Of a DNA stretch of 44,715 nucleotides, positions 12,337-22,941 are shown piece by piece. The notes under the pieces are model-generated. The model saw nothing but the letters and a program-made list of their open reading frames with translations, was not told the DNA's origin and did no database searches. Numbering within the stretch: the stretch's first letter is position 1; each line of letters opens with the position of its first letter. The stretch spans positions 1-44,715 of the forward strand of contig JAIPDC010000004.1 of NCBI GenBank assembly GCA_021737865.1, given 5' to 3'. Both the position numbers and the translations under genes were made by a program. Source of the DNA: Rhodoferax sp. Its GTDB lineage: Bacteria > Pseudomonadota > Gammaproteobacteria > Burkholderiales > Burkholderiaceae_C.

Positions 12337-13728
12337 ATGGCCGTATCCGTATTTGACCTGTTCAAGATCGGCATAGGCCCCAGCAGCTCCCACACCGTGG
12401 GGCCGATGCGGGCAGCACGGCTGTTTGTGTTGCGGTTGCAGCAAGGCGCTCTGCTGGAGCAAACCACGCGAATGCGCTGCAGCCTGTATGGCTCGCTCGG
12501 CGCCACCGGCAAGGGCCACGCCAGTGACGTGGCCGTGTTGCTGGGTCTGTGTGGGCAAGAGCCGGACACAGTCGAGATCGACGCCATCCCCGCGCTGCTG
12601 GCCAGCATCCGGGGGGCCCACAGCCTTGCCCTGCTGGGGCGCCACCGCATCGATTTTTTCGAAAAAACCGACCTGCTTTTCCTGCGCAGCGAGACGCTGC
12701 CCTTTCACGCCAATGGCATGCGCTTTGTCGCCTTCAACGCGGCTGGCGATGAGATTGCCAACCGGATTTACTACTCGGTGGGTGGTGGCTTCATCCTGAG
12801 CGACGACGTGGCGACCGACGGCACACGCCAAAAAGTGATCGCCCCGGATGCCACTGTGCTGCCGCTGGCGTTTGGCAGCGGCGACGAACTGCTGACACTG
12901 GCAAAGTCGCGGGGCTTGAGCATCGCCCAGATCATGCGACGCAACGAGCAACACTGGCGCAGCGATGCCGAGATCGATGCCAACCTGCTGCGCATCTGGC
13001 AAGTCATGCAGGACTGCGTGGTCCGTGGCTGCCAGACCGACGGTGTATTGCCGGGCGGGTTCAAAGTGAAGCGCCGCGCCCATGCACTGCACCAGGCGTT
13101 GTGCAGCAACCCGGAAGCGGCCCTGCGCGACCCGCTGCAGGTGCTGGACTGGGTCAACCTGTATGCGCTGGCGGTGAACGAAGAAAACGCGGCGGGCGGG
13201 CGCGTGGTCACTGCGCCCACCAATGGCGCGGCCGGCATCGTGCCCGCCGTACTGCACTACTACAGCCGCTTTGTGCCCGGCTCCAATGACGCGGGCGTGA
13301 TGGACTTCCTGCTCACTGCTGCGGCCATTGGCATTCTGTACAAGGAGAACGCCAGCATCAGTGGCGCCGAAGTGGGCTGCCAGGGCGAGGTCGGGGTGGC
13401 CTGCTCCATGGCAGCGGGTGCCCTGTGCGCCGTGATGGGTGGCACGCCCGCACAGGTCGAAAACGCGGCCGAGATCGGCATGGAGCACCACCTGGGCCTG
13501 ACCTGCGACCCGGTGGGCGGGCTGGTGCAGATTCCGTGCATCGAGCGCAACGCCATCGCGTCCGTCAAGGCCATCAACGCCGCGCGCATGGCGCTGCGCG
13601 GCGACGGCTCCCACTTTGTGAGCCTGGACAAGGTCATCAAGACCATGCGCGAGACCGGTGCCGACATGAAAACCAAGTACAAGGAAACGGCGCGCGGCGG
13701 ACTGGCCGTCAATATCGTCGAATGCTGA
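12337..13728 (+). CDS. sdaA: L-serine ammonia-lyase (single-chain)
   Basis: [27 protein letters not shown] and [20 protein letters not shown]. Confidence 0.96.
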
Positions 13729-13758
13729 TGGCATCGTGCGCACCGTGATAATTCCCGC

Positions 13759-14280
13759 ATGACGCCACTGCACTCAGCCACCCCCGATACCAGCACACAA
13801 CCAAATAGCGTGCCCCGCCTCGCCGAACTGTTGCTCCGCAAACAGTGGCGTCTCGCAACGGCCGAGAGTTGCACCGGCGGGATGATCTCCGCCGCCTGCA
13901 CTGATCTGGCGGGCTCCAGCGCCTGGTTCGAACGCGGCTTTGTGACCTATTCGAACGACGCAAAGATGGAGCTGCTGGGTGTAGAAGAACGCATCTTGCG
14001 GCGGGCGGGTGCCGTGTGCCAGGGCGTGGCCAAGGCGATGGCCCTGGGCGCAATCGCGCAATCCCATGCAGAGGTTGCGGTAGCAGTGACGGGTGTCGCC
14101 GGCCCCACCGGTGGCAGCCCAGCCAAGCCGGTGGGAACCGTGTGGTTTGGCTTTGCCCTACCCGGCAAAGTGGTGACCGAGAAGTGCCATTTCGACGGCG
14201 ACCGCGCCACTGTGCGCTCGGCGACGGTGAACCACGCCATCAATCGCCTCATCGCGCTACTGGAGCTGGTAGACGATTGA
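13759..14280 (+). CDS. pncC: CinA-family nicotinamide-nucleotide amidohydrolase
   Basis: RLATAESCTGGMISAACTDLAGSSAWFERGFVTYSNDAKMELLGV; VAVTGVAGPTGGSPAKPVGTVW. Confidence 0.93.
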   Translation: MTPLHSATPDTSTQPNSVPRLAELLLRKQWRLATAESCTGGMISAACTDLAGSSAWFERGFVTYSNDAKMELLGVEERILRRAGAVCQGVAKAMALGAIAQSHAEVAVAVTGVAGPTGGSPAKPVGTVWFGFALPGKVVTEKCHFDGDRATVRSATVNHAINRLIALLELVDD

Positions 14281-14331
14281 CTCCGGTAATTTCTATATTT
14301 TGTAACCATTTGCCCATCGTTTCGGGCATCC

Positions 14332-14375
14332 CTTAAGAATTCCTTAAGGGAATTTTTCCCAAAAGCAACTACAGT
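14332..14375 (+). promoter_or_regulatory. Direct-repeat box CTTAAG-N5-CTTAAG + TTTTTCCCAAAA + CTACAGT upstream of dsbD (motif copy A)
   Basis: CTTAAG at 14332-14337 and 14343-14348 (11-bp period). CCCAAAA and CTACA have the same spacing as at 21382-21424. Confidence 0.6.
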
Positions 14376-14405
14376 CATCTCCATCTTTTCTACTGGAGAT
14401 GGCCC

Positions 14406-16208
14406 ATGCGGCATTGGATCGGGATTTATTTCAGGTACGTGCTGGCACTGGCGCTCAGTGCCAGCGGTGCGTGGGCAGCCCCAGCACTGACTGACAATTT
14501 TTTGCCACCGGAGCAGGCTTTTGCGTTTTCAACCCGCACGGTGGATGCCAAGACGATCCGCCTGCACTGGGACATCGCTCCCGGCTACCACCTGTACCGT
14601 GATCGAATCACGGTGCAAACCGACGCGACGAAAGTGAAGTGGGCCGCGCTGACCCTGCCACCGGCCAATGAGAAGTTCGACTCCAACTTCAACAAAACCA
14701 TGGCGGTGTACGAGCAGGCGTTGGACATCGAGGTCCACATGACTCAGGGCAACGCCAACAGCCCACTGACCGTCACCTGGCAGGGCTGTGCCGATGCGGG
14801 GCTTTGCTACCCGCCCGAGTCGGCAGCCCTGAACCCACTTTCGACTACACCATCAAATTCGGCTACAGCCCCCGTGGAATATGCGCAAGACGCTACGGAT
14901 TCAGTAGCATCTGCGCTGGCCTCTGGCAGCCTATTGCGCACCCTGGGAGTATTTGGCCTGGCCGGCTTGCTGCTGGCGTTCACACCCTGCGTGCTGCCCA
15001 TGGTGCCCATCCTGTCTTCGCTGATTGCCGGGCAAACGGGCGTGGTCAGTCGGAGCAAGGGCTTCAGCCTGGCACTGGCCTATTCGCTGGGCATGGCCCT
15101 GGTCTATGCCGGCTTTGGCGTCGCAGCCGGACTGGCAGGTGAAGGGCTTGCTGCTGCACTGCAAAACCCCTGGGTCTTGGGCGGTTTTGCACTGATGCTG
15201 TCGACGATGGCACTGTCCATGTTTGGCCTTTATGACCTGCAGATGCCCAGCGCCATCCAGAGCCGAGCAACAGAATGGTCCAACCGCTTCAAGGGCGGAT
15301 CGTATGCAGGCGTGTTCCTTATGGGTGGTGTCTCTGCATTGGTGGTGGGCCCCTGTGTGGCGGCTCCACTGGCTGGTGCCTTGGTCTACATCAGCCAGAC
15401 CAGGGACGTGGTGCTGGGTGGTCTGGCACTGTTTGCGATGGCACTCGGCATGAGCGTGCCCTTGTTGCTGGTGGGTTTATCTGCGGGCAGTCTGCTTCCA
15501 CGTGCAGGAGCCTGGATGGAGCGCGTCAAACAGGTGTTCGGCATGATGCTGTTAGGGGTTGCCATCTGGATGGTATCGCCCGTGCTACCCGCCACGGTGC
15601 ACATGCTGGCGTGGGCCGTCTGGCTACTGACCGGCGCGGCCCTGCTGGGCGTCTTTGGCCCGGCAACACCGCAACACGCACATACACCGGTGGCCGCACG
15701 CGCCAGTGGCACCGCGCTGGCCACGCTTTCGCTGGTGCTGCTGGTGGGGGCGTCGTCCGGCGGCCAATCGGTGCTGCAACCCCTGGGTCACCTGCATTCG
15801 ACGCAGGTAACGGGTAGCGCCGCTGCGCCCACGAATGCCAGCCTGAACTTTGAGCGCGTACAAAGCGTACAGGCACTGGACGCGGCCCTGATGCAGGCTC
15901 AACAAAAGGGCCAAACCGTGATGCTGGACTTTTATGCCGACTGGTGCGTGGCGTGCAAGGAGTTGGAGACCTTCACCTTTAGCGACCCACAAGTGCAAAA
16001 GCGCCTAGGCAACGTGGTGCTGCTGCAGGCAGACGTCACGGCCAACACTACGGCCGATAAAGATTTGCTCAAACGCTTTAGCCTGTTTGGGCCACCTGGC
16101 ATGGTGTTCTTTGACGGTGCATCCGCCAATCGCGTCGTGCACAAGGTGGTCGGCTATCAAAACGCCAGCGACTTTCTGACATCCCTGAGCCACGCAGCCA
16201 TTCGCTAA
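14406..16208 (+). CDS. dsbD: Thiol:disulfide interchange protein DsbD
   Basis: N-terminal alpha domain (GYHLYRDRI), transmembrane core FTPCVLPMVPILSSLIAG, C-terminal thioredoxin DFYADWCVACKELE. Confidence 0.95.
   Translation: MRHWIGIYFRYVLALALSASGAWAAPALTDNFLPPEQAFAFSTRTVDAKTIRLHWDIAPGYHLYRDRITVQTDATKVKWAALTLPPANEKFDSNFNKTMAVYEQALDIEVHMTQGNANSPLTVTWQGCADAGLCYPPESAALNPLSTTPSNSATAPVEYAQDATDSVASALASGSLLRTLGVFGLAGLLLAFTPCVLPMVPILSSLIAGQTGVVSRSKGFSLALAYSLGMALVYAGFGVAAGLAGEGLAAALQNPWVLGGFALMLSTMALSMFGLYDLQMPSAIQSRATEWSNRFKGGSYAGVFLMGGVSALVVGPCVAAPLAGALVYISQTRDVVLGGLALFAMALGMSVPLLLVGLSAGSLLPRAGAWMERVKQVFGMMLLGVAIWMVSPVLPATVHMLAWAVWLLTGAALLGVFGPATPQHAHTPVAARASGTALATLSLVLLVGASSGGQSVLQPLGHLHSTQVTGSAAAPTNASLNFERVQSVQALDAALMQAQQKGQTVMLDFYADWCVACKELETFTFSDPQVQKRLGNVVLLQADVTANTTADKDLLKRFSLFGPPGMVFFDGASANRVVHKVVGYQNASDFLTSLSHAAIR
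14854..14908 (-). repeat. 55-bp interspersed repeat, copy 2 (in-frame in dsbD)
   Basis: Minus strand GCTACTGAATCCGTAGCGTCTTGCGCATATTCCACGGGGGCTGTAGCCGAATTTG; aligns to copy 1 across its length. Confidence 0.6.
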
Positions 16209-16239
16209 AACTTTCTCCCACCTCTTCCTTTATCCAGCC

Positions 16240-16740
16240 ATGAAACACATCTACAGCAAAACACTCCAGCTCGTCTTGTTCACATTTCTGTGCGGCTCAG
16301 CCTTGGCCATGGAAATCGGTCAGCCAGCCCCAGACTTTGAATTGCCAGGCCGTGCCACCGCCGTGAAGCTGAGCGACTACAAGGGCAAGACCGTGTACCT
16401 GGACTTTTGGGCCTCATGGTGCGGTCCGTGCAAGCAATCCTTCCCGTGGATGAACGACATGCAGTCGCGCTACGGAGCCAAAGGCTTGCGTGTGGTGGGC
16501 ATCAACCTGGACCAGAAAAGCGAAGACGCCCGCGACTTTCTAAAGGAAAACGCGGCCAGCTTTGACGTGGCCTTTGACCAGGGTGGCAAGACCCCCAAGT
16601 CATTCGCCATCAAGGGCATGCCCACCTCGGTGCTGATCGGCCCCGATGGCAAGGTGATCAGCATGCACAGTGGCTTCAAGCCCGAACAAAAAGCCGAGCT
16701 TGAACAGCAGATCAGGCAAGCACTCCACCTAAAAGACTAA
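16240..16740 (+). CDS. TlpA/ResA-like periplasmic thioredoxin
   Basis: Signal peptide; YLDFWASWCGPCKQSFPWMNDM; GMPTSVLIGPDGKV. Confidence 0.93.
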   Translation: MKHIYSKTLQLVLFTFLCGSALAMEIGQPAPDFELPGRATAVKLSDYKGKTVYLDFWASWCGPCKQSFPWMNDMQSRYGAKGLRVVGINLDQKSEDARDFLKENAASFDVAFDQGGKTPKSFAIKGMPTSVLIGPDGKVISMHSGFKPEQKAELEQQIRQALHLKD

Positions 16741-16753
16741 CCAAGAAGGATGC

Positions 16754-16984
16754 ATGATGAAAAGAACCATTCTGAGCCTGTTGGCCATCACCTCACTCGC
16801 CTGGCTGGGCGGCTGCAGCAGCATCGGCCAGGTTAACGCCTGGGAAAAAGGCAACCTGGCCAAACCAGGCATGACGTTTGAGTCCGACCCGCTGGACCAG
16901 CGCTTTACCCAACACATTTACAGCAGCAAGGAAAACTCCAGCGGTGGCTACGGTGTTGGTGGTGGCGGTTGTGGCTGCAACTAA
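16754..16984 (+). CDS. DUF4266 small lipoprotein with Gly/Cys-rich C-terminus
   Basis: Lipobox LAWLGGC; VNAWEKGNLAKPGMTFESDPLDQRFTQHIYSSKENSSGGYGVGGGGCGCN. Confidence 0.85.
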   Translation: MMKRTILSLLAITSLAWLGGCSSIGQVNAWEKGNLAKPGMTFESDPLDQRFTQHIYSSKENSSGGYGVGGGGCGCN

Positions 16985-16995
16985 GGGCGTTCAAC

Positions 16996-18195
16996 ATGAG
17001 CACTCACAACACCCCCCCGAGCCAACAATCCGCCGGCGGCGTACTGCTGGCATCTTTGCTGTTGCCGGGTCTCGCCACGTTGGCAGTCATGGGACCCACA
17101 CCTGCGGCAGCCGAATCGGCCCCTGAGAAATCCACCATTGCTGTCAAGTACGGCAGCTACAGCGACAGCCAGCCGGGATGGGAGCGCGTCAAAGCCACGG
17201 CACCCCAGATTTACGTGCAGGTGCCCATTGCCGGAGAGTGGTCCATTGAAGCCTCCGGCGTGGTTGACAACGTCTCCGGTGCGACGCCCTACGCGCACAC
17301 GCAAAAGTCAGGCGCCAGCAGTGGCGGCAAGATGGGCATGAGCGACGAGCGCAAGGCTGGCGACGTCAAAATCACACGCTACATGGCGCGCTCTGCCATC
17401 TCGGCCAGCGTGGCCTACTCGAAGGAAAATGACTACACATCCACGGCATTGGGTCTGGAAGCACGCTGGTCCAGCGACAACAACAACCGCACTTGGACTC
17501 TGGGCTTTGGCGCCGCCAGCGACTCCATCGACAACACAGCAAGCGGCATCAATACCGCCATCAACGAGCACAAGAACACCCAGGAATTCATGGGGGGCAT
17601 CACCCAGGTACTGACTCCCACTGACATCGTCCAGCTCAACTTCACACGTGGTGTGGGCAGCGGGTATTTCAACGACCCTTACAAATCGTATGACCTGCGC
17701 CCCAGTCAGCGCGACACCTGGATTGCACTGGCCCGATGGAACCATTACCTGGAGCCTTTTGATGCTTCGCTGCGTACCAGCTACCGGCATTACAGCGACA
17801 CCTTTGGCGTGCAGTCGCATACCGTCGGCCTAGACTGGGTGCAGCCCGTTGGCAAGGTCGCCATTACCTCCGGCGTGCGCTACTACAGCCAGCAGGCGGC
17901 CAACTTCTACTTTGATCCGGTGCTCAATGCGCAGGGGCAATACGACGGCTTTGGCGCGCTCATGCGGGCTGCAAGTTTGAAAGACTACAAATCGGCAGAT
18001 CAGCGGCTGGCGGCTTTTGGTGCAGTCACACTGTCCATGAAAATCGCCTACACAGTCACACCCGATACGGTGGTGGACTTCAAGATCGAGACTTACCGGC
18101 AGTCGGCGGACTTGTATCTGGGCGGAACTGGCAGCCCCGGTCTGGCCCCCTTCAACGCCCAGTTCGTCCAGATTGGGCTCACGCGCAGGTTTTAA
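16996..18195 (+). CDS. DUF3570 family predicted outer-membrane beta-barrel with a flavinylation-like DNVSGAT motif
   Basis: Signal peptide, alternating amphipathic strands, C-terminal QIGLTRRF (BAM-type terminal aromatic). Motif VVDNVSGATPY encoded at 17260-17292. Confidence 0.85.
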   Translation: MSTHNTPPSQQSAGGVLLASLLLPGLATLAVMGPTPAAAESAPEKSTIAVKYGSYSDSQPGWERVKATAPQIYVQVPIAGEWSIEASGVVDNVSGATPYAHTQKSGASSGGKMGMSDERKAGDVKITRYMARSAISASVAYSKENDYTSTALGLEARWSSDNNNRTWTLGFGAASDSIDNTASGINTAINEHKNTQEFMGGITQVLTPTDIVQLNFTRGVGSGYFNDPYKSYDLRPSQRDTWIALARWNHYLEPFDASLRTSYRHYSDTFGVQSHTVGLDWVQPVGKVAITSGVRYYSQQAANFYFDPVLNAQGQYDGFGALMRAASLKDYKSADQRLAAFGAVTLSMKIAYTVTPDTVVDFKIETYRQSADLYLGGTGSPGLAPFNAQFVQIGLTRRF

Positions 18196-18204
18196 AATTC
18201 GGAC

Positions 18205-19137
18205 ATGAAACGCTGGTGCGCACTGCGGTTTGACTTCCGGGCCATGGCCTCGCCCTGCTCCATCCAGATGGATGGCCAGGACGAGCACACCATGCGCCAA
18301 GCCGCAACCGAGGCGATTGGGGAGGTCCAGCGCATCGAGCACAAATACTCGCGATACCGCGAGGACAGCATCGTCAGCCGCATTAATCAGTCGTCCACCA
18401 CGGGTGGGCAGGTCGCTGTGGACGGAGAAACGACTGAATTGCTGGGATTTGCACACGCTCTTTGGCTCATGAGCGACGGGTTGTTCGACATCACCTCGGG
18501 CGTTCTGCGCCAGGCCTGGGACTTTCGCGCCGCACGCCTGCCAGAGCCCGCCAAGCTGCAGTCCACGCTGGAAAAAGTGGGTTGGAACAAGGTGGAGCGC
18601 AGCGGCTCAACCGTGCGCCTCACCCAGCCCGGCATGGAGCTGGACTTTGGCGGCTTTGGCAAGGAATACGCAGCCGACCGCGCCGCTGCCGTATTGCACC
18701 GCCACGGCATTGCCCACGCGTTGGTCAATCTGGGTGGAGACCTGCATGCGCTGGGTGCGCGGGCTCTGCCCGAATTGCAAGACACTGCCTGGCAGATTGA
18801 GATTCAACACCCGCGCCCGGACACTGCCATCGGAAAATCGTCACTCGCGGTGCTGGCACTGCAGCAAGGCGGTCTGGCCACCAGTGGCGACTATGAGCGC
18901 TTCTTCATCCAGAACGGCAAGCGTTACTGCCACGTTCTTAACCCCCACACCGGCTGGCCGGTCACGCACTGGCAATCCGTCAGCGTGCTGGCTGCCAACA
19001 CCACGACGGCTGGCGCACTCACCACCATTGCCATGCTCAAACAAACCGATGCACTGGACTGGCTGTCAACCCAGGGCGTTCGCTATCTGGCCGTGCAACA
19101 CGACGGCCAGGTTCACAGCAGCTCGCAGTCGCTATAA
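18205..19137 (+). CDS. apbE: FAD:protein FMN transferase (ApbE)
   Basis: RIEHKYSRYREDSIVSRIN; GLFDITSGVL; ELDFGGFGKEYAADRAA; ALVNLGGDLHALG; HVLNPHTGWPV. No recognisable signal peptide. Confidence 0.94.
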   Translation: MKRWCALRFDFRAMASPCSIQMDGQDEHTMRQAATEAIGEVQRIEHKYSRYREDSIVSRINQSSTTGGQVAVDGETTELLGFAHALWLMSDGLFDITSGVLRQAWDFRAARLPEPAKLQSTLEKVGWNKVERSGSTVRLTQPGMELDFGGFGKEYAADRAAAVLHRHGIAHALVNLGGDLHALGARALPELQDTAWQIEIQHPRPDTAIGKSSLAVLALQQGGLATSGDYERFFIQNGKRYCHVLNPHTGWPVTHWQSVSVLAANTTTAGALTTIAMLKQTDALDWLSTQGVRYLAVQHDGQVHSSSQSL

Positions 19138-19185
19138 AAACAATAGCTACTCCCGCATATAGAACGGGGACTAGACCCTAATCTG
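19131..19185 (+). repeat. 55-bp interspersed repeat, copy 3 (spans the apbE stop)
   Basis: GCTATAAAAACAATAGCTACTCCCGCATATAGAACGGGGACTAGACCCTAATCTG. Confidence 0.7.
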
Positions 19186-20326
19186 ATATCTCAAGCGTAG
19201 TCACCATCAGCACATCACCGGCCTTGGTTCCACGGAGCTTGACCTTCACGCCAACCTTCAGGTCACTCACCACGCCTTCGCTGATAACCGCACTGGTGGC
19301 GTCGCAACGCTGGCCCCTGACCACAAAATTGGCCAAACTGGTGAATTGCTCGATTTTGGCTTCAATCTCCGCTTCGTCGAGCTTTTCCTCGCTCTCCACC
19401 CCAAGCGATCCGGCCTTTAGCACACCGCCCTGCCAGATGCCCTCGACCTCAAGGCGCTGCCCGATGGCCAGCACTTTGTAGGACGCCGCCAAGCTGGCGC
19501 TGCTCGCGTCAACCTCGACACTGCCCAGCATGAACCGGCTACCCGACAAGAGTGCCGTCACAAGTCCTTCGATTTCAACTTCGCCCTGGGGCAAACTGCT
19601 GCCTTGCAAACCCAGAAGCTTGAAACTATCAACTTGCAAACTGCCGCCCGATGACGACAACGCCCCCTGAACCCGCACCAACTGTCCCGAGCGCAGGCTG
19701 GCAATACTCTGGCCGGAAAGCGCAAAACCATTGAGCGTACCGGTGGCGGTGACGATGCCGGTGCACACCATGCTTGTGGCCGTCACCAGCGCCACCCGGG
19801 TTGCTGTCCAACGACTGCCGTCGATACCGCTTTGCAAACCCCACACTACGACGCGCATGCCATGGACCAAACCCGCAGTGCCGCTGAGGCCATCGAACAC
19901 CGTGGCAGCATTGGTCTCTATCAACATCCCGGCAACCATGAATTGCCCACCCTGAACCTGTGAAACCGCACCCTGTGCAATAGACCACACCGCGATCGCG
20001 TTGGCAACACCCAGGGTCAGGTCGGCTCCGCGCAGACCCTGCACATCGGCCACCATGCCCAGGCGCAGGTCCTGCGAACCGGCCGCCAACCCGTCAACCT
20101 GCACCGCGGCGGCCGTGTCATCAAACCGGATACCGTTAACAATCACGCTGCCAAAGCCAACAATCGTCCCCTGCGCAAACAGGCCGGTGCCACCTGTGCC
20201 AGGCAAGGCGGCAAAAAGGCTGCCACCCAACCCACCGCCGCCACCGCAACCGGCCAGACCACTGGCCACCAATGCCAGCAAACTGCGCCTGCTGACCGAT
20301 GGGCTCAACCCGTTGTGCTGTTTCAT
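19178..20326 (-). CDS. DUF5666 domain lipoprotein
   Basis: Lipobox LAGCGGGGG; repeated small beta modules (GTIVGFGSVIVNGIRFDDTAAAVQVDG; VRVQGALSSSGGSLQVDSFKL; VEIEGLVTALLSGSRFMLGSVEVDASSA). Confidence 0.8.
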   Translation of the reverse strand: MKQHNGLSPSVSRRSLLALVASGLAGCGGGGGLGGSLFAALPGTGGTGLFAQGTIVGFGSVIVNGIRFDDTAAAVQVDGLAAGSQDLRLGMVADVQGLRGADLTLGVANAIAVWSIAQGAVSQVQGGQFMVAGMLIETNAATVFDGLSGTAGLVHGMRVVVWGLQSGIDGSRWTATRVALVTATSMVCTGIVTATGTLNGFALSGQSIASLRSGQLVRVQGALSSSGGSLQVDSFKLLGLQGSSLPQGEVEIEGLVTALLSGSRFMLGSVEVDASSASLAASYKVLAIGQRLEVEGIWQGGVLKAGSLGVESEEKLDEAEIEAKIEQFTSLANFVVRGQRCDATSAVISEGVVSDLKVGVKVKLRGTKAGDVLMVTTLEISD

Positions 20327-21267
20327 GGTTTTGGTTTCCTTCTTGTCTTGCGTGGCTCGGAACTTACCTGTGTTTCCGCGACGGGTGCGTCTTGCTGGGT
20401 ATCGTTGAAGTAGACACCAAAGCGGACACGGTATTTAGGACCCGCCTGACCTTCGCTTCGCTGCTCCGCAACGGTTGCGGTCTGCAAAAATTGTTGAAGC
20501 GATTTGGCCCACAAGCGCCGGGCAAGTTGCTGCAACTGCTCGACCTGGGTGGCTGACAGATCGTGCGAAAAGGCACTTTGTTCAAGCTTTGGCGGTCCGA
20601 CACGGTCAGGCGCGAGGTTGTGCACAGCCGCTGCCAGGTGTTCGGCCACATTGGAGGCCAGAAAATGAAACGACTCGCTGCGGCCTTCATTGGGCACAAA
20701 GCCGTGGGTCTTGAGGACTACAAAGCCGTCCTCACGCAACTCGACCACCCCCAAGCGGACCAACTCGTCAAGCACGGCACGCGCACCCACGTCACGACTG
20801 ACCTCACCCACCAGCATGGTGAAATCGGGCTCGCCAGGCAAACCCCGACGTGGTGTGCGGGCAAGCGCCCGAGCCGACTGATCGGCATTCAAAAAGCGGG
20901 GCTCGCTGATCCAACGGGCCACCACCGAAGCCGCCATCGGAACCATCGGGGTGCGGCCGGCCGGCGCCTCCGGAGCGCTGCGCAGGCGCCTCACATCTTT
21001 GCGGTGCACCCCGGTTAGAAGTGAGATTCTGGTGTCGGAACTGCCCTTGTCAGCCAGCCCGTATGCGCCGGCAGCCTCGTCTACCAGGGCTTTTTTGAGC
21101 AAATCGACCAGGGAAGGCAACTGCAACCCGTGGTCGATCATCAAGCGGGCGAGCGGCTGCAATACGCGCGAAATGGCCTCAGCCGCCAGGGCAGGCTCGG
21201 GTAAGCCTACGGCGGTTTGAGGGGCAACTTCCGCATTCGGGTCGCCTTGACATGTATCTTCAATCAT
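20323..21267 (-). CDS. DUF6502 family protein
   Basis: ARLMIDHGLQLPSLVDLLKKALVDEAA...TRISLLTGVHRKDVRRLR; 4-nt overlap with the downstream DUF5666 start. Confidence 0.75.
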   Translation of the reverse strand: MIEDTCQGDPNAEVAPQTAVGLPEPALAAEAISRVLQPLARLMIDHGLQLPSLVDLLKKALVDEAAGAYGLADKGSSDTRISLLTGVHRKDVRRLRSAPEAPAGRTPMVPMAASVVARWISEPRFLNADQSARALARTPRRGLPGEPDFTMLVGEVSRDVGARAVLDELVRLGVVELREDGFVVLKTHGFVPNEGRSESFHFLASNVAEHLAAAVHNLAPDRVGPPKLEQSAFSHDLSATQVEQLQQLARRLWAKSLQQFLQTATVAEQRSEGQAGPKYRVRFGVYFNDTQQDAPVAETQVSSEPRKTRRKPKP

Positions 21268-21381
21268 GGGGTTTTGGGGCTTTTCAGTGTACGCCCACAT
21301 TGCCTGAGCACAAACTGTTACATGCATTTTATGGGTTTTTTTCCCAAATCAAGAGACTATTTCTGATTTTTGAACTATCCT

Positions 21382-21425
21382 CTTAAGCATGTCTTAAGGT
21401 ATTTTTTCCCAAAAATTGCTACATT
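21382..21425 (+). promoter_or_regulatory. Direct-repeat box CTTAAG-N5-CTTAAG + TTTTTTCCCAAAA + CTACATT upstream of the di-heme lipoprotein (motif copy B)
   Basis: CTTAAG at 21382-21387 and 21393-21398 (11-bp period); spacing to CCCAAAA and CTACA identical to the dsbD copy. Confidence 0.6.
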
Positions 21426-21453
21426 TGCATCATCTTTTTATAGGAGCCTCACC

Positions 21454-22941
21454 ATGAAACCCGCAATTCCCCACCTGACACTCAGCCTGATCGGCATCGC
21501 CGTGGCCACGCTTACAGCCTGCGGCGGCGGTGGCGGCGGAAGCACAAGCACAAGCACAAGCTCCAGCACGGTTGGCAACACTGGCACAACAGCGGTCGCA
21601 ATGACGGCCGTTACTGTCACTGTTATGGACGGGTTGATCCGAAACGCCCGGGTCTGTGTGGACAGCAACGTCAATGGCGTGTGCGATGCCGGCGAAACAC
21701 AGGGCTATACCGACGCCAGCGGCAAAGTGACACTTGAAGTACCCACGGCCAACCTGAATTCGGCACGCCTGATCGCGATGGTTGGAACCGATGCCACCGA
21801 CGCGGACACCGGGGGCGTGAAAACCGCCTACACCATGACCACACCGGCTGGAAAACTCAGCGTCATCAGCCCGTTGACCACCATGGTGCAGGCGAAAATG
21901 GAGAAAGACAATGTCAGCCTCCAGGCGGCAGAAAGCTATGTCCAGTCGCAAACCGGGCTCAGCATCTCCATGTTCGACGACTTCGTTGCCAAGCGCTCCA
22001 GCAGCACCGAGCACAAGAAAGCCGGAGACGTCGCGCGCCTGCTGGTACTCAGCACCCAAAAATCCAAGGAGACCCACACCGATGAAGCCAATAGTGCCTG
22101 TATCGCTGGCAAGTCGGACTCTGAGGCGGAGCACATTAAGGAAACCCACATCTACGAAGGATTGGTTAGCACCCTTTCCGACGTCCGCAGGACATCAGAC
22201 GAGTCGGAGCGTGACCACAACGACAACGACGACGAGGATCATGATGACAGAGTTCGCCAGGCTGCAGGTGTAGTCCCCATCTGCGGAACGACCACAACGA
22301 TTCCGACGCCGACATCCACTGCATCGGCAATTTCCGGAAAAACGCTTTACGCAGCAAGCTGCTCCTCTTGCCACGGCGCGAACCCTTCGCAGAACATCAG
22401 CAGCATCCTCAAGGGCGCCAACAATCCTTCCAAAATACTGAGCGCGATCAGCGGCAACAAGGGCGGCATGGGCTATTTGTCGGCAACCATTGCCACGCAG
22501 CAAGCCACCGACATCAGCGCCTACCTGGCCAACCCAACCGTGGCATCGAGCACGCCAACCCCAACTCCAACTCCAACTCCAACTCCAACTCCAACTCCAA
22601 CTCCAACTCCAACTCCAACTCCAACTCCAACTCCAACTCCAACTCCAACTCCAACTCCAACTCCAACTCCAACGCCAACGCCAACGCCAACGCCAACGCC
22701 AACACCGACTCCAACGGCGTCTGCTGCCAATGGCAAAGCGATCTACGCAGCCAGTTGTTCAGGTTGCCACGGCGCCAATGCAGCACTGGGAGGCAACAAT
22801 ATTCTTAATGGGGCCAACAACGCAACACTGATCACGAGTGCGATCAACGGTAATGTTGGTGGAATGGGCTTTCTATCGGCAACCATCACTGCCACGAAGG
22901 CAGCCGACCTCGCGGCCTTCCTGGCAACGCCGGGAATCTAA
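21454..22941 (+). CDS. Lipoprotein with two c-type cytochrome domains separated by a Pro-Thr repeat linker
   Basis: Lipobox LTACGGGGGG; CSSCH and CSGCH haem motifs in duplicated domains; (PT)n linker between them. Met at 21454 fits a GGAG upstream. Confidence 0.88.
   Translation: MKPAIPHLTLSLIGIAVATLTACGGGGGGSTSTSTSSSTVGNTGTTAVAMTAVTVTVMDGLIRNARVCVDSNVNGVCDAGETQGYTDASGKVTLEVPTANLNSARLIAMVGTDATDADTGGVKTAYTMTTPAGKLSVISPLTTMVQAKMEKDNVSLQAAESYVQSQTGLSISMFDDFVAKRSSSTEHKKAGDVARLLVLSTQKSKETHTDEANSACIAGKSDSEAEHIKETHIYEGLVSTLSDVRRTSDESERDHNDNDDEDHDDRVRQAAGVVPICGTTTTIPTPTSTASAISGKTLYAASCSSCHGANPSQNISSILKGANNPSKILSAISGNKGGMGYLSATIATQQATDISAYLANPTVASSTPTPTPTPTPTPTPTPTPTPTPTPTPTPTPTPTPTPTPTPTPTPTPTPTPTPTPTASAANGKAIYAASCSGCHGANAALGGNNILNGANNATLITSAINGNVGGMGFLSATITATKAADLAAFLATPGI
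22555..22716 (+). repeat. Hexanucleotide tandem repeat (CCAACT/CCAACG)n, 27 units
   Basis: 18 uninterrupted CCAACT units at 22561-22668, then mainly CCAACG variants; encodes (PT)n in frame. Confidence 0.98.

Follow-up and report, generated by a model that had tools for sequence, protein, structure and literature searches.

A DUF3570 outer-membrane barrel as a probable substrate of a signal-less ApbE in a DsbD-type flavinylation cluster of Rhodoferax sp.

In the stretch of Rhodoferax sp. DNA analysed here (44,715 nucleotides, referred to as the window), a DUF3570 outer-membrane barrel very probably carries bound flavin, as judged from its acceptor sites and by analogy with a modified relative. 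Taken as a whole, the explanation that we consider quite probable is that of a flavinylation cluster in which an FMN-bearing barrel would be loaded before export by an ApbE lacking a signal peptide, and from which electrons would have a route to haem or an outside acceptor. The genes for DsbD, a thioredoxin-like protein, DUF4266, DUF3570, and ApbE (Table 1) form one cluster on one strand at 14406–19137, with the same genes found adjoining in most of 80 related loci, and by its gene content this is a DsbD-type flavinylation cluster with DUF3570. A promoter and terminator scan of 13700–19400 gave counts close to those of shuffled sequence, and our search for a plasmid-borne relative found none.

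Clusters of this kind have been described before. In the accessible parts of Meheust et al. (2021, eLife; PMC8238504), the arrangement DsbD/thioredoxin-like/DUF4266 (CxC)/DUF3570/ApbE is set out, ApbE-linked DUF3570 proteins are said to have two conserved [S/T]GA[S/T] motifs, and DsbD-to-thioredoxin electron transfer toward flavin is proposed. Compared with the clusters in those parts of the paper, the gene content, the C-terminal CxC of DUF4266, the two DUF3570 sites, and the lack of an FMN_bind gene are the same here, whereas the thioredoxin gene of the window is a Redoxin/AhpC-TSA member (PF08534) rather than PF13899, the latter being represented here by the C-terminal domain of DsbD. What is added relative to the same parts is the predicted extracellular-loop position of the sites, the ApbE without a signal, the exchange at the ApbE metal site, and a haem lipoprotein, and of these the first three seem to be new with respect to the literature. 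In the literature searched, DUF3570 or DUF4266 was named only in Meheust et al. (2021). An earlier note on this DNA had put forward the barrel as an ApbE substrate, an idea that is not new, as it had appeared in 2021 (PMC8238504), and because this main claim is already published, the locus is ordinary for its kind.

Table 1. Positions of the genes, sites, and residues discussed in the text
Feature	Position	Strand	Basis
DsbD, with N-terminal, transmembrane, and C-terminal thioredoxin domains; first cluster gene	14406..16208	+	DsbD_TM 308, DsbD_N 104, Thioredoxin_7 55 bits
TlpA-like periplasmic thioredoxin, WCGPC active site	16240..16740	+	Pfam Redoxin 87.6 bits
DUF4266 small lipoprotein, lipobox LGGC, end GGGGCGCN	16757..16984	+	Pfam PF14086 80.7 bits
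DUF3570 outer-membrane barrel	16996..18195	+	Pfam PF12094 191.2 bits (cut-off 25; profile 6–426 of 427); AlphaFold2 pLDDT 86.7, pTM 0.83
Putative flavinylation site 1, D91-N-V-S-G-A-T97 (D91 codon 17266–17268; acceptor Thr97 codon 17284–17286)	17266..17286	+	sequence and conservation in 69 sequences
Loop L2, residues 96–115, between strands 3 and 4, with both acceptors	17281..17340	+	strand map, loop-length variation
Putative flavinylation site 2, S105-G-A-S108 (acceptor Ser108 codon 17317–17319)	17308..17319	+	sequence and conservation in 69 sequences
ApbE without signal peptide	18205..19137	+	Pfam PF02424 254.2 bits (cut-off 25.6)
Glu154 of ApbE, within GGFGKEYA; canonical ApbE has Gly here	18664..18666	+	alignment
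Conserved His243 of ApbE, corresponding to catalytic His257 of V. cholerae ApbE	18931..18933	+	alignment
Gly270 of ApbE, in the place of metal-binding Asp284 of T. pallidum Ftp	19012..19014	+	alignment to 4ifu, variant 4xdr
Lipoprotein with two haem c domains and Pro-Thr linker	21370..22941	+	Pfam Cytochrome_CBB3, two stretches

The 399-residue translation of the DUF3570 gene contains VVDNVSGATPYAH, begins with a signal peptide of about residues 1–39, and ends in a C-terminal Phe. The heptad DNVSGAT with its Asp and its Thr97 codon, as placed by the earlier note, is exact on this translation. While the site that it had singled out is indeed present, a second one was overlooked, and the protein has two [S/T]GA[S/T] sites (S94-G-A-T97 and S105-G-A-S108), with site 2 being 11 residues past site 1 and lacking an Asp three residues earlier. 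When the mature protein was shuffled 200,000 times, 0.7% of the shuffles contained the full heptad, and 0.0015% the heptad plus a nearby second [ST]GA[ST]. Moreover, among the window ORFs of at least 150 residues, only DUF3570 has a D-x-x-[ST]-G-A-[ST] motif. When 69 Burkholderiales-type DUF3570 relatives were aligned, site 1 read D-x-[VI]-S-G-A-[ST] in all 69 (D91, S94, G95, and A96 are invariant), with position 97 occupied by Ser (44) or Thr (25) and by no other residue, and site 2 read [ST][GST]A[ST], again in 69/69, with its Ala invariant and with Ser (55) or Thr (14) as the acceptor. A chance origin of the motif was ruled out by this conservation together with the shuffles, and the conservation of site 1 supports modification.

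As summarised in a 2025 review (PMC12052999), the ApbE motif is D-x-x-[S/T]-G-A-[S/T], in which exchange of the Thr for Ala abolishes modification, Gly to Ala leaves about half, and replacement of the Asp by Ala makes little difference; for this last reason the Asp-less site 2 is still plausible. Also, the DUF3570 of Chlorobium luteolum was reported to be flavinylated by its cognate ApbE upon co-expression in E. coli (seen by UV in-gel fluorescence; PMC8238504), with the flavinylation being lost only when the serines of both [S/T]GA[S/T] motifs were mutated. This precedent and the conservation of the sites lend support to the view of the barrel as an ApbE substrate, in which Thr97 would carry FMN and Ser108 probably would as well.

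We also examined a broad, class- and phylum-wide sample of 114 DUF3570 frames, whose genomes are all of the window's phylum and mostly of its class, counting an apbE within 2.5 kb as adjacent, and site 1 with Gly or a full second site as an intact-glycine site. Here, an intact-glycine site is present in all 65 of the DUF3570s adjoining an ApbE of the window's type (window-type), and of the 17 DUF3570s of determinable context without such a site, 14 have no apbE within 2.5 kb and three are beside a canonical signal-bearing apbE. The association of an intact site with a window-type ApbE neighbour gave p = 1.5e-8 in Fisher's exact test, a value that describes association only and not independent events, because the DUF3570 sequences share descent. 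Conservation of the heptad in DUF3570 proteins beside apbE, the point on which the earlier note had said its proposal could fail, was thus found both among the 69 aligned relatives (site 1) and in the broad sample, and the proposal is not refuted. As to whether the motif tracks the apbE neighbourhood, which the note had also suggested checking, the loci beside window-type ApbE are all intact, but another 26 loci have an intact DUF3570 site even though no apbE lies within 2.5 kb, and a strict rule whereby the motif occurs only with an adjacent apbE was rejected on their account.

The heptad (D-x-x-S-G-A-S) might instead have a structural function at the mouth of the barrel, in which case the neighbouring ApbE would have some other target. 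Although a large subfamily without a window-type ApbE has D-x-x-S-[NST]-A-S, such that the heptad is partly kept without its glycine, we judge this reading to be highly improbable, given that ApbE is known to modify these sites in its cognate DUF3570 in one case (PMC8238504), that only Ser or Thr is found at position 97 among the 69 sequences, that the glycine-containing site is present without exception beside window-type ApbE, and that no other known substrate family was found in the genome. Within the assembly, which is 79% complete, there is one ApbE, and neither FMN_bind nor DUF2271 gave any match; another ApbE substrate from these families was rejected at that level of completeness, and the remark in the earlier note that no FMN_bind gene is in view holds genome-wide within the same 79%.

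Several other forms of DUF3570 were seen among the relatives. In a second subfamily, represented by the glycine-less proteins at loci L151 and L199, which were examined in detail, many members have D-x-x-S-[NST]-A-S at site 1, DUF3570 comes after the thioredoxin-DUF4266 pair, and the cluster includes an HZS_alpha-like protein (bearing haem motifs in L151), SH3-barrel proteins, and small barrels, with a canonical apbE several kb off. Directly 3′ of DUF3570 at L296, L301, and L309 lies an apbE of the canonical, signal-bearing kind, and site 1 of these DUF3570s has no glycine. At L002, L003, L004, L206, and L216, the DUF3570 open frames exceed 900 residues, about twice the usual length, and site 1 is D-T-W-S-G-A-[ST] in those examined.

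With regard to the fold, the AlphaFold2 model of DUF3570, made with the 69-sequence alignment, has 16 strands spanning residues 47–398. The even turns of the barrel are 2–5 residues long and nearly constant across the family (mean 3.0, SD 1.2), and the odd loops range from 2 to 41 residues (mean 13.8, mean SD 6.8), with the acceptor-bearing L2 being the most variable loop and residues 107–113 having a pLDDT below 50. The strand number and the loop pattern support the assignment of DUF3570 as an outer-membrane barrel made in the earlier note. In the usual topology of outer-membrane barrels, both termini are periplasmic and the odd loops are hence extracellular, and with the side taken from this topology, both flavinylation sites are predicted to be extracellular, in L2. 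Structural matches to the model were generic barrels, such as FadL, PelB, and OmpG, with query-normalised TM scores below about 0.55, and because they are generic, these back a barrel and no specific function. No solved structure matching DUF3570 by sequence was found.

Turning to the enzyme, apbE starts nine bases 3′ of the DUF3570 stop and in the same frame, with the TAA codon (18193–18195) located four codons before its ATG. The fold begins at residue 14, with 13 residues preceding its AMAS motif, and because this stop prevents any longer N-terminal extension, a signal peptide cannot be accommodated; the N-terminal signal or lipobox of the canonical ApbE lipoproteins is lacking. Here, signal peptides were scored by a hydropathy rule along with the room before the fold. 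In the broad sample, 24 of 66 window-type ApbEs have no room for a signal peptide, and just one of the 66 (L143, with a possible hydrophobic start) shows a long hydrophobic stretch free of charges ahead of the fold, as compared with a signal-like stretch in 22 of 30 ApbEs sampled irrespective of DUF3570.

The metal site of this ApbE is also altered. In previous work, Asp284 was identified as an Mg2+ ligand in T. pallidum Ftp and His257 as the catalytic residue of V. cholerae ApbE (PMC5655446), while Asp285 is among the three conserved active-site residues named for ApbE (PMC12052999). Since this Asp is described as conserved and is a Gly across the whole window-type subfamily, the metal-binding Asp being absent from the window ApbE as well, the subfamily departs from the described pattern. 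The Glu (of GKEY) and Gly pair occurs in all 94 scorable window-type ApbEs beside DUF3570, but in only 1/30 of those sampled elsewhere, and we infer that the Glu would take over as metal ligand from the lost Asp. In a tree calculated without these two diagnostic columns, the DUF3570-linked ApbEs form one clade (support 0.90), which includes three DUF3570-free signal-less ApbEs. Loss of the Asp at the metal site could weaken the activity of window-type ApbE, and a more extreme possibility is that the enzyme is catalytically dead or altered and that the DUF3570 site is at present unmodified. This we view as very unlikely; the lost residue is indeed an Mg2+ ligand in Ftp and a conserved active-site residue, and Gly has replaced it throughout the clade, but many families share the exchange in fixed form, along with a new Glu by the metal site and an unaltered catalytic His, a pattern resembling ligand replacement, and the acceptor sites have stayed intact beside window-type ApbE.

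The three DUF3570-free members are signal-less GKEY ApbEs (L201:7907-8879, L203:2258-3203, and L204:4527-5472) that have no nearby DUF3570, their neighbours being leuA-like or two-component genes. The generalisation that every signal-less Glu/Gly ApbE serves a DUF3570 was rejected because of these, whose genomes are also absent among the DUF3570 matches listed.

Without a signal peptide, the window ApbE should reside in the cytosol, where FAD is abundant, and most probably transfers FMN there. Moreover, a site in an extracellular loop would be out of reach of a periplasmic enzyme after membrane insertion of the barrel; together with the missing signal, this points to FMN transfer before export. 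As we envisage it, the window ApbE would attach FMN, drawn from cytosolic FAD, onto the unfolded DUF3570 precursor, and the FMN-bearing precursor would then pass through Sec and be folded into the outer membrane, such that the finished barrel would present FMN on Thr97, and probably on Ser108, in extracellular L2. We think that this timing, with attachment in the cytosol prior to export, is reasonably likely, and the C. luteolum DUF3570, which in E. coli was mostly found in the insoluble pellet and was still flavinylated (PMC8238504), fits such loading. Cytosolic transfer is itself known from the cytoplasmic ApbE of Klebsiella pneumoniae, which is likewise signal-less and acts on a cytoplasmic fumarate reductase (PMC12052999). 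However, that target stays in the cytosol, whereas the DUF3570 of the window, with its signal peptide, is predicted to reside in the outer membrane. With the FMN_bind proteins of the NqrC/RnfG/NosR type, the window system has in common the D-x-x-[S/T]-G-A-[S/T] heptad and the ApbE fold, but its acceptor is a putative barrel loop instead of an FMN_bind domain, and unlike the periplasmic lipoprotein ApbE of that type, the window ApbE has neither a lipoprotein signal nor the metal-binding Asp.

Flavinylation of DUF3570 in the periplasm, either by an ApbE that is exported without an N-terminal signal or by some other ApbE, appears unlikely to us. Only one ApbE was found in the genome and nearly all window-type ApbEs are without a signal, even though the characterised ApbEs of exported proteins are periplasmic lipoproteins (PMC12052999). 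A signal-bearing canonical ApbE does adjoin some DUF3570 relatives, namely those at L296, L301, and L309, but these are the ones with a glycine-less site 1. Loading before export, which is the reading we prefer, would explain how a flavin transferase gains access to an outward-facing barrel site, and if true, it would overturn the idea that exported proteins can be flavinylated only with a periplasmic ApbE and exported FAD. Moreover, surveys limited to apbE genes with a signal peptide would miss enzymes of the window type. We lean slightly toward a still broader proposal, according to which a monophyletic cytosolic ApbE subfamily with an altered metal site would load FMN before export onto a Sec substrate, and this substrate would cross two compartments with its covalent flavins, display them on an extracellular loop, and be wired by a thiol relay plus, in some species, haem c.

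The remaining genes suggest how such flavins might be reduced. DsbD is the better of two DsbD_TM matches in the genome, and the C-terminal C-x-C of DUF4266 is kept in 114/114 relatives. Electrons could pass from cytosolic thioredoxin to DsbD, the TlpA-like thioredoxin, the C-x-C tail of DUF4266, and the barrel flavins, from which either the haem lipoprotein or an acceptor outside the cell, for example Fe(III), would receive them. For this path and its direction, which are read from gene content, we regard the chances as even. The haem lipoprotein, whose Pro-Thr linker is encoded by about 27 copies of CCAACT (22555–22715), is a probable further member of the cluster, because its relatives recur behind apbE, starting at most 2.6 kb behind it in 20 of 72 loci, with haem motifs present in some and missing in others. 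A link to haem is suggested by this recurrence and by open frames of about 900–1000 residues in Duganella (L126:4877-7693 and L130:4646-7693), each combining a c-type haem motif, Ig-like (ASH/HYDIN-type) repeats, and a thioredoxin (Redoxin) end. The role of the system may be to reduce extracellular metal or to repair surface thiols, and if the scheme is true, the flavin in which a DsbD thiol chain ends at the cell surface would be a candidate electron route to extracellular acceptors.

The Duganella haem-thioredoxin chimera is encoded upstream of DUF4266-DUF3570-ApbE. In the window, a DUF5666 lipoprotein (19178–20326, − strand) and a DUF6502 protein (20323–21327, − strand) are also encoded, and these recur near DUF3570 in 27 and 29 related loci, respectively, either behind apbE or between the DsbD and thioredoxin genes.
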